The position numbers and the translations under genes were made by a program. The notes beneath the pieces are model-generated. The model was not told the origin of the DNA and did not search any database. It saw nothing but the letters and a program-made list of their open reading frames with translations. From positions 1-21,575 of the IMG/VR virus record IMGVR_UViG_3300029995_000046: 21,575 nt of DNA; one strand, given 5' to 3'. The stretch is from a virus. Position 1 is the stretch's first letter. Each line of letters starts with the position of its first letter. Shown piece by piece: positions 6,334 to 21,575 of this stretch.

Positions 6334-6819
6334 ATGGCACAATTCACTAAAGCTGAGCGAGAAATGAAAATTGAGCAAGCCCGGCGAATGTATTGCAAAG
6401 GATTCGACTCTCAAACCATTTCCGATATCATGGGTGATGTAACTAAACGGACACTGGACGGTTGGATACGCGACTATGATTTTGACCGTAGCAAAAAGAG
6501 TCAGATCATTGCTCTATCTGAAATTAGAAACTCCATACTCGAAAGTTATGCCGATTTGCTCGACGGTAAAAAACCAAAGATCACTCCTGATCAGGCTGCG
6601 AAGTATGCTACAGCTTTTGAGAAGTTCAGCAGCAAAAAACAAGTGCTTTCATATATGCACGAAGCTTTTGAGATGCTTAGCGAAGAGTTTATGAAGGATA
6701 TTCAGAAAACCGAAGGCAGGAAAGAGAAAGACAACCTATTGAACGATTTACGCGGGGTGCGTTCAAAAATGGAAAATGTATTAACCCGTCTAACAAATGA
6801 AGTATTAGGCAATGAATAA
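6334..6819 (+). CDS. Small terminase-like DNA-binding protein
   Basis: The first gene of the rightward packaging operon has 161 residues. Residues 8-48 form a helix-turn-helix (EQARRMYCKGFDSQTISDIM, then TKRTLDGWIRDYDFD) typical of phage small terminases and DUF1804-like proteins of Mu-type phages. The remainder is helical and charged, with a likely oligomerisation segment around residues 85-160. It would recognise phage DNA and hand it to the large terminase two genes downstream. It overlaps the next gene by 8 bases. The start ATG is 5 bases beyond the right copy of the inverted motif in the control region. I am fairly confident of the DNA-binding role; the exact family is less certain. Confidence 0.7.
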   Translation: MAQFTKAEREMKIEQARRMYCKGFDSQTISDIMGDVTKRTLDGWIRDYDFDRSKKSQIIALSEIRNSILESYADLLDGKKPKITPDQAAKYATAFEKFSSKKQVLSYMHEAFEMLSEEFMKDIQKTEGRKEKDNLLNDLRGVRSKMENVLTRLTNEVLGNE

Positions 6820-20375: not shown

Positions 20376-20663
20376 TTATTCCTTGTTTAATTGTTTAGAT
20401 TCATTTTCTACTTGACAAAATTGAAAGCAAAGTTTATTTGCAATATGATTGAATTCTAAGTAGTCTACATCCTGTTTAGTAAACTTATTATAGATAAATG
20501 CAGGAGCTACACATGCCACAGCAAACATAAATTCAGTTATCTGATCATCCTCAATTAATTCTTGGAGATCAATTCCGCAAGCATCATCTTTATCGAATAA
20601 TTCTTGCAACTTAGCAGCTATTAAAGTTGCATAATAGGGGTACTTTTCGTTTTGTTTACTCAT
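20376..20663 (-). CDS. Small early protein of unknown function
   Basis: This acidic 95-residue protein has two hydrophobic helical segments (residues 10-20 and 42-57, with QITEFMFAVACVAPAFIYNK) and several Cys. It could be a small alpha-helical domain. No family is recognised. It lies between the membrane protein at 20675-21031 and the DUF3164 gene, with gaps of 11 and 2 bases. Only the frame and operon position are secure. Confidence 0.5.
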   Translation of the reverse strand: MSKQNEKYPYYATLIAAKLQELFDKDDACGIDLQELIEDDQITEFMFAVACVAPAFIYNKFTKQDVDYLEFNHIANKLCFQFCQVENESKQLNKE

Positions 20664-20674
20664 AATTTTGAATT

Positions 20675-21031
20675 TTATTGATGTATTTTTACTTGATTTC
20701 TAAAGAGTAAGCTAGTCAATCGGTCCGACTCAATTTGAGGATACACTATCTCAACCCATTCTCCTTTAGGATGAATGATCACATTCATGTTCAGCATTGA
20801 GATAGCTTTGCGAACACGATTAAATGAGTTGATGTGTACAGTGATTGATTTACGTGGAGTTTCGCGTCTATAATCGCGATAAATAGATAGAGTAATAATG
20901 GCCATTGCAAAGCTCATAGCGTACAAATGGTATCCATTAAACTTGATAGCAGCAATCAAACTAATAACACTAAATGCAGATGTAATACACATTAGTACTA
21001 TTGAGCATGTGGGAAAAAAGTGTTTTGTCAT
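20675..21031 (-). CDS. Two-helix membrane protein of the early operon
   Basis: The 118-residue protein has two predicted membrane helices (about residues 8-30 and 36-50), followed by a basic junction (YRDYRRETPRKS) and a soluble domain with ITVHINSFNRVRKAISMLNM and VIIHPKGEWVEIVYP, which read as strands. Topology is probably with the soluble domain in the cytoplasm, by the positive-inside rule. No family is recognised. Membrane proteins in the immediate-early position can act in superinfection exclusion, but that is only a guess here. Confidence 0.5.
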   Translation of the reverse strand: MTKHFFPTCSIVLMCITSAFSVISLIAAIKFNGYHLYAMSFAMAIITLSIYRDYRRETPRKSITVHINSFNRVRKAISMLNMNVIIHPKGEWVEIVYPQIESDRLTSLLFRNQVKIHQ

Positions 21032-21050
21032 ACAATTAATTATTTATTGG

Positions 21051-21248
21051 TTATTGAACTAAATCATAATATTTACTTGCAGCCTCTTCCACTATCGGTT
21101 TCAGAGTACGTGTACCATTTAATTGTTGGCGTACAATCGTTTCAGAATACTCTTTATGTCCCCGTTCAACAGCTATTTTATTAGCAATTTGCATTATTCG
21201 CAATGTGTCTCCGTGCTGTTTTTTTTGTTGTAATTCTTGCAGATTCAT
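21051..21248 (-). CDS. Ner/Cro-like early regulator
   Basis: I start this at the ATG at 21248 (MNLQELQQKKQHGDTLRIMQ), giving 65 residues; an open frame to 21311 would run into the operator at 21287-21302. The sequence RIMQIANKIAVERGHKEYSE followed by TIVRQQLNGTRTLKPIVEEA has the look of a small helix-turn-helix protein. Its position as the first leftward gene, opposite the repressor, is that of Mu ner or a Cro, which turns early transcription down after infection. The function is inferred from position and size. The HTH is not strongly recognisable. Confidence 0.55.
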   Translation of the reverse strand: MNLQELQQKKQHGDTLRIMQIANKIAVERGHKEYSETIVRQQLNGTRTLKPIVEEAASKYYDLVQ

Positions 21249-21286
21249 ATTTTTATGTACTTTTGTGTTGTAAATCGGTGCAAATA

Positions 21287-21356
21287 TCGAAATAAGTTTC
21301 GAATAAAACAAGATAAAGCGAAACTAATTTCGTTTTAAAATCGAAATAAATTGCGA
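21287..21356. promoter_or_regulatory. Three palindromic repressor operators
   Basis: Three 16-bp near-palindromes lie between the divergent early and repressor genes: TCGAAATAAGTTTCGA (21287-21302), GCGAAACTAATTTCGT (21318-21333) and TCGAAATAAATTGCGA (21341-21356). Their start spacings are 31 and 23 bases. The consensus half-site is CGAAA. A leftward promoter (minus-strand GATATTTG as a -7-like box with CTTG about 20 bases upstream) would straddle the first operator. The rightward box TAATTTCG (21325-21332) lies in the second. The arrangement resembles the Mu c/ner operator region. Repressor binding is inferred. Confidence 0.75.
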
Positions 21357-21358
21357 AT

Positions 21359-21575
21359 ATGGATGTAGTAACGGATATTTCTCAAAGAATAAGTGACTTA
21401 GTGGTACATTTTGCTGAAGGCAAAAACACTAAGTTTGCTGAGCTTGTAGGCACAAGTGAGGCTAATATCCGTAATTACAGGGGTGGTAAGATGCCCAAGT
21501 TCGATTTTATCTACAAAGTTTGCGAGAAACTCGAAATAAGTTTCGATTGGTTCATATTAGGAAAAGGAACAATGT
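21359..21575 (+). CDS. Prophage repressor, N-terminal part (XRE/S24 type), cut by the edge
   Basis: The frame begins with ATG at 21359 and is open for 72 residues to the window edge. Residues 22-62 form an XRE helix-turn-helix: TKFAELVGTSEANIRNYRGG, then FDFIYKVCEKL and ISFDWFILGKG, the last being typical of S24/CI-like repressors before their linker. It is divergent from the early operon and separated from it by three palindromic operators, so it should repress the early promoter and maintain lysogeny. A fourth identical operator lies inside this coding sequence at 21531-21546. The C-terminal half is outside the window, so I cannot say whether it has a self-cleaving peptidase domain. Confidence 0.85.
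   Translation, partial: MDVVTDISQRISDLVVHFAEGKNTKFAELVGTSEANIRNYRGGKMPKFDFIYKVCEKLEISFDWFILGKGTM
21531..21546. promoter_or_regulatory. Operator copy inside the repressor gene
   Basis: TCGAAATAAGTTTCGA at 21531-21546 is identical over all 16 bases to the first operator at 21287-21302. It encodes LEISFD in the HTH domain end, so the match may partly be chance, but an exact 16-base palindrome copied 229 bases from the others is not expected. It could let the repressor block its own transcription or form a DNA loop. Confidence 0.6.

Follow-up and report, generated by a model that had tools for sequence, protein, structure and literature searches.

The DNA analysed here (the window) is a 21,575-base IMG/VR virus record corresponding to a fragment end of a Mu-like phage. 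Judged by its genes, this is a Mu-like transposable phage, encoding both a DDE transposase (rve, 2.1e-6 by hmmscan, below the cut-off, and over the cut-off in the profile search of genomes) and an AAA transposition protein (AAA_22, 1.8e-11; phrog_296 DNA transposition protein, 5.6e-23). The host probably belongs to the Bacteroidota, a phylum with little-studied lysogeny circuits, as suggested by relatives (Winogradskyella and Porphyromonas phages) and by promoter motifs. No match was returned by blastn of positions 20376–21575 against phages, by tblastn against plasmids or by phmmer against the PDB at E ≤ 0.01. A scan of genome contigs yielded one weak HTH relative (L011, in a Vallitalea MAG), which lacks the intragenic site described below.

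The repressor gene starts with an ATG at 21359 on the plus strand, and its 5' part, encoding the HTH domain, occupies 21359–21575; the window ends within the gene. A complete copy in L002, with 100% identity over the 72 common residues, encodes 242 amino acids ending in a C-terminal Peptidase_S24 domain. The combined HTH and S24 architecture was recovered in P0001 (Peptidase_S24, 1.5e-10; HTH_19, 3.6e-5, below the curated cut-off), and HTH_19 was also detected below cut-off on the window fragment (3.4e-6). By eye, residues A113–G114, S149 and K193 of P0001 fit the LexA/CI pattern for RecA-stimulated self-cleavage. Divergent from the repressor gene, the early operon begins with a gene (21051–21248, minus strand) for a 65-residue protein that is Ner-like by position only and has no Pfam or PHROG match.

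The Bacteroidota −7 promoter consensus is TAnnTTTG. A putative lytic (early) promoter carries its −7 element at 21281–21288 on the minus strand (GATATTTG), with a TTG 20 bp upstream (21309–21311, minus). The candidate repressor promoter faces it from the plus strand, with −7 at 21258–21265 (TACTTTTG) and a TTG 18 bp upstream (21237–21239). Both arrangements recur among the 36 loci compared: a minus-strand TAnnTTTG-like element (at least 5/6) abuts the first operator, O1, in 35/36 (null 0.24 per locus), and a plus-strand TAnnTTTG (6/6) lies 26–48 bp upstream of O1 in 28/36 (null 0.09 per locus). With these −7 positions, the lytic promoter would have O1 in its spacer, and the repressor promoter would read across three upstream operators, the ATG and a fourth, intragenic one.

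O1 (21287–21302, plus strand; TCGAAATAAGTTTCGA) would thus lie within the spacer of the putative lytic promoter. It is followed by O2 (21318–21333; GCGAAACTAATTTCGT on the plus strand and ACGAAATTAGTTTCGC on the minus strand), which in its minus-strand reading differs from O1 at three positions, and by O3 (21341–21356, plus strand; TCGAAATAAATTGCGA), directly 5' of the repressor ATG, which differs at two. These agree with the imperfect upstream copies described in the initial annotation. That annotation had further reported an exact recurrence of the first 16-mer in the frame LEISFD, 244 bp from O1 centre to centre; both the letter-for-letter identity and the distance were confirmed. This intragenic site, O4 (21531–21546, plus strand; TCGAAATAAGTTTCGA, no mismatches to O1), spans repressor codons 58–63, written CTC GAA ATA AGT TTC GAT. 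The core CGAAA-N4-TTTCG is found at 21287, 21318, 21341 (one mismatch) and 21531. With up to three mismatches allowed, the 16-mer occurs at five places in the window against a shuffle mean of 0.41, and none of 100 shuffles reached five; the fifth match (6539–6554, three mismatches) lies outside the O1–O4 cluster. Once the protein is fixed, O4 in the window alone is moderately surprising (P = 0.014 under synonymous recoding), so the case for it rests on relatives.

Type-A relatives and silent-site conservation

Relatives sharing the window's HTH type, here called type A, were gathered from IMG/VR protein scans, a 16-mer scan, a scan for the upstream site only and tblastn of phage records, giving 22 distinct loci in which the window's own gene is represented by L066. 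Eighteen came from the protein scans, L046 and L103 from DNA patterns matching the upstream site, and L062 and L057 from tblastn. The alignment behind one protein scan included sequences that the 16-mer pattern had already turned up, and of the two peptide patterns used with it one demands [LF][ED]IS[FY][DE], which favours site-compatible residues, not codons. All the evidence considered is sequence, and its chief weaknesses are lineage dependence, an O1 chosen by hand and metagenomic contigs without hosts. Several loci were dropped before counting: L076 (= L075) and L080 (= L079) as duplicates; L117, L121 and L122 as the same contigs as L083, L073 and L084; L116 (no repressor ORF found) and L138 (no repressor identified); and L125, L128 and L135 (too little upstream sequence). 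L087 and L011, which have another HTH, were likewise left out of the counts and kept as contrasts.

Also dropped were L086, L100 and L118, which are one contig; its repressor frame is broken after about codon 53, with upstream sites present and no O4. In the last ~430 bases of this contig (L100, IMGVR_UViG_3300020045_010178) the repressor matches L083 to about codon 53 and gives way to unrelated sequence and then a transposase-like piece, which reads as a rearranged or chimeric end.

HTH identity to the window's repressor ranges from 38 to 97% in the 11 aligned type-A segments. Operator-like palindromes precede the repressor in 22/22 loci, those of L057 being variants (TCGCGA...), and every locus also holds an intragenic candidate. 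This matches at least 11/12 in 18 loci, 10/12 in three (L046, L062 and L103) and 9/12 in one (L057); these last four sites are degenerate. An exact intragenic copy is therefore a feature of the window and not a rule, several relatives having one or two mismatches. Against synonymous recodings that kept each locus's own protein and codon usage, the intragenic site reached P ≤ 0.05 in 18/22 (exceptions L062, L077, L081 and L082). The only other place matching at least 11/12 in the 22 repressor genes is at +4 in L075, besides an overlapping pair in L077 and L081, where both intragenic sites are present. L075 and L079 have the site 12 bp further upstream, where the residues encoded are others (IARSFD and IVKTFD). 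O4 was picked between two overlapping sites in L077, L081, L062 and L103. No conserved TAnnTTTG adjoining O4, as for a promoter inside the repressor gene, was seen by eye in the relatives' sequences.

Operators can overlap through a common TCGA half-site at 12-bp spacing, as seen at −49 and −37 in L047 and L078, at −50 and −38 in L042 and L084, and at +151 and +163 in L077 and L081. Nine of the 22 type-A records have no rve match (L046, L071, L072, L075, L077, L081, L082, L085 and L103); all nine have the type-A repressor and operators. Some of these contigs are fragments, and others may represent non-transposable phages with the same immunity module.

Silent positions were compared across the loci that keep the site in register. 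All 17 end codon 61 (Ser/Asn) in T, codon 62 (Phe, Tyr or Cys) in C and codon 58 (Leu/Phe) in C, the last as 11 CTC and 6 TTC. Synonymous changes destroying the palindrome in relatives, which the initial annotation had named as counter-evidence, were thus not what was found: C-ending codons 58 and 62 are kept in 17/17 despite varied residues. Among 130 relative pairs below 75% identity, the same codon was used wherever the residue was equal in 100% of cases at codons 58, 59, 61 and 62, whose wobble base falls in the palindrome arms or at an arm edge. The rate was 63% at codon 60 (wobble in the spacer), 45% at codon 63 (wobble outside) and 47% on average in the other columns, a contrast with a Mann-Whitney p of 0.0012 for columns that are not strictly independent. 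This silent-site conservation strongly supports the fourth operator proposed earlier, and O4 is very probably a real operator of the phage's own repressor. It would be kept inside the HTH-coding region by selection on the DNA sequence.

Intragenic sites in other immunity types

L009, a heteroimmune sister phage, shares its transposase (85% identical) and early protein (80%) with the window, and its repressor HTH is different (26% over 53 residues). Its operator, AGTATGATAATTTCATACT, has two upstream copies, of which the second is mismatched, and a further copy at +159 of the repressor gene, 211 bp away from O1. The motif TCGAAAN4TTTCGA is absent from the 9.7 kb of L009, as is the L009 motif from the window. 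Since L009 keeps both proteins and changes the motif with the HTH, the site follows the repressor and not the transposase or early protein.

Other Mu-like phages were collected via transposase alignments and subjected to a shared-motif test, in which 110 bp of upstream sequence was aligned without gaps to codons 20–85 in either orientation, with 200 synonymous recodings as the null. Eleven of the 21 non-type-A Mu-like repressors gave P ≤ 0.05 (L009, L058, L119, L120, L123, L129, L130, L131, L132, L133 and L137), a proportion with a binomial probability of 1e-9 if the loci are independent. The other ten were not significant (L059, L060, L061, L109, L110, L124, L126, L127, L134 and L136); suggestive palindromes are present in L059, L061, L126 and L110 despite failing this ungapped test. 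None of seven repressors from phages of unestablished type passed (L064, L065, L087 and L105–L108). The test is blunter than the type-A comparison, and 14/22 type-A loci pass it.

A first dyad test, based on codon-order shuffles, was replaced by synonymous-codon nulls. In the synonymous version, five loci that pass the ungapped test were not significant (L123, 13/40; L119, 25/40; L120, 7/40; L058, 32/40; L137, 16/40), and three scored better than in the ungapped test (L110, 2/40; L126, 4/40; L061, 0/40). In single-linkage clustering of the HTH domains at 45%, the non-type-A loci that pass form five groups separate from type A; L129 clusters with type A at this threshold although its motif differs, and linkage at 35–40% merges nearly all XRE domains. 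The C-terminal parts also differ, with Pfam S24 in the four type-A repressors checked, whereas L009, L119, L123 and L133 have short repressor proteins whose tails look coiled-coil-like by eye. The same layout across unrelated operator types points to repeated selection.

Four Porphyromonas gingivalis phages (L057, L058, L060 and L061) have nearly identical S24 C-termini, four different HTHs and differing upstream operator-like sequence. Read from these sequences, the HTH has been exchanged while the C-terminal domain stayed the same. The Rhodobacter phage RcapMu (L110) carries AACAG-N7-CTGTT at −45 and +177 of the c-repressor start used, 222 bp apart; this palindrome pair stands at 2/40 against the null in the dyad test and at P = 0.30 in the ungapped test. 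In phage D3112 (L140), GATTGGCTGATCAA lies upstream of cI and GATTGGCTTATCAA at +240 within it (13/14), a match that does not reach significance when the protein sequence is kept constant.

Helical phase, proposed function and known systems

Centre-to-centre distances from O1 to O4 in type A fall at 212, 221–224, 231–233 and 242–246 bp. A scan of periods from 6 to 20 bp gave a best value of 10.5 bp (n = 21, R = 0.82), or 10.6 bp for 16 lineages. At 10.5 bp the 16 type-A lineages are clearly phased (R = 0.79, Rayleigh p = 4e-5), in counts that exclude L057, use an O1 chosen by hand and treat lineages that are not independent. In type A the O1-to-ATG distance shows phasing too (R = 0.70), so the phase might have a purpose unconnected with O4. 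Eleven other types share the mean phase of type A (0.18 vs 0.19 turn) with R = 0.54 and p = 0.04, a strict set of seven non-A types gives R = 0.37 and p = 0.38, and L119/L120 (216 bp) and L131/L137 (176 bp) are out of phase. Strong phasing in type A and weak phasing outside it suggest that looping is favoured in type A, and we consider it somewhat better than an even bet that looping is part of O4's job.

The site might instead be a consequence of the protein, the codons for LEISF[DE] merely happening to look operator-like. The residues do fix about half of the site, and the P from the window alone is 0.014, but the wobble bases are invariant only within the site and the shifted site overlies different residues. 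Moreover, L087, with its other HTH, encodes LEISYE as TTA GAA ATT TCT TAC GAA and has neither site. Such a coincidence is very improbable, and we give similarly little credence to another protein reading O4, either the transposase at a Mu-like enhancer or the 65-residue early regulator. Mu operators do double as a transpositional enhancer. Against this, L009 retains both proteins while its motif and HTH both differ, and the 9/22 type-A records lacking an rve match carry the site too. Less credible still is an RNA element, in which an mRNA hairpin (UCGAAA-UAAG-UUUCGA) would act on translation or stability: the window offers a perfect 6-bp stem, yet L068, L069, L070 and L072 have arms that no longer pair fully (TTACGA, TTGCGA) in a site that is still operator-like, and the shared motifs of L119/L120 and L058 are non-palindromic. 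On the wobble, L009 and broken-arm evidence, these three readings were set aside.

A roadblock deserves more weight. Here, repressor bound at O4 would halt RNA polymerase arriving from the repressor promoter, with no contact to O1. The putative repressor promoter is upstream of all four sites, which makes this conceivable, and such a promoter precedes O1 in 28/36 loci. A roadblock, however, needs no phase with O1, whereas type-A distances step by ~10.5 bp, and O1–O3 would already serve the purpose; we regard a roadblock alone as rather unlikely. The initial annotation had offered either a roadblock or a looping site limiting repressor synthesis. Of the two, helical phasing favours looping, and the limiting of repressor synthesis is something we infer, as we do binding at O4.

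We therefore put a probability of roughly 0.6 on O4 being an auxiliary operator that loops to O1 and contributes to negative autoregulation. In this model the repressor would bind O1–O3 and also O4, ~20–23 helical turns away; O1–O3 overlap the putative lytic promoter, and the repressor promoter that faces it is upstream of them. Repressor on O4 would most likely join that on O1 through a short DNA loop. The loop might raise O1 occupancy, giving tighter lysogeny, and might close off the 5' region of the repressor gene, giving negative autoregulation. More tentatively, and with the odds somewhat against it, the layout may be a general design in Mu-like phages of Bacteroidota, a matched operator embedded in the HTH-coding segment at whole helical turns from the lytic operator, the two forming one swappable cassette. 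If so, HTH exchange would bring its own loop partner. A single odd repeat would thereby become a testable rule on looping and autoregulation in compact phage switches, and the layout may make it easier to predict operators and immunity groups with nothing but sequence to go on. Silent mutations cleanly separate DNA function from protein function, which makes for a simple test.

Coliphage 186 has a comparable arrangement, with the CI site FL (22726–22742) inside cI (22433–23011), +269 from the ATG (NC_001317); the record's annotation gives the function of FL as unknown. One report describes distal-site regulation by 186 CI and looping in vitro, and an inconclusive test of looping in vivo (PMC8053113). 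Phage 186 also resembles the window in its convergent pR and pL, pL crossing the pR operators before cI, the window's promoters being recognised at motif level only. In contrast, 186 CI consists of Phage_CI_repr and Phage_CI_C without S24, and its BLASTP match to the window's repressor is marginal (E = 0.043); the HTH of L075 touches Phage_CI_repr (E = 2e-4). The two repressors are thus not homologous over their full length; as the repressor family differs on this comparison, we do not assign the phage to the 186 family. FL lies ~300 bp from the pR sites and is unlike them in sequence. It was not recovered by the shared-motif test, which thus misses operators of unlike sequence.

Mu is like the window in that its repressor gene diverges from a Ner-type gene and transposase, and its operators lie between the repressor gene and the Ner-type gene. 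Unlike the window, Mu and D3112 have no significant intragenic copy by the same kind of test; nor does lambda. Mycobacteriophage stoperators are repressor sites that are numerous, asymmetric and scattered genome-wide, a pattern that differs from the four clustered palindromes and one three-mismatch match in 21.6 kb. TP901-1 is like the window in having several operators, one of them distal, and unlike it in its hexameric repressor with a helical C-terminal part; its distal operator, OD, is located in mor, not cI. One paper describes TP901-1 CI acting at OL, OR and OD in a loop or wheel model (PMC4941734). Another places an attP, not an operator, in a repressor gene (PMC4557955), and two further papers provide context (PMC7708051, PMC8776804).

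Searching open-access full text with a few phrases, we recognised no account of a Bacteroidota phage whose repressor gene contains an operator. New here, on sequence comparison, are the silent-site conservation, the reappearance of the layout with operator motifs unrelated to one another, and a position within the segment that encodes the HTH. By analogy, the topology works like that of 186 FL or lac O2. The lac operator O2 lies within lacZ, as gal OI does within galE; both are auxiliary operators, each paired with a promoter operator in a phase-dependent loop. They sit in a regulated structural gene, whereas O4 sits in the segment for the regulator's own DNA-binding domain, where the same bases would encode that domain and serve as its binding site.
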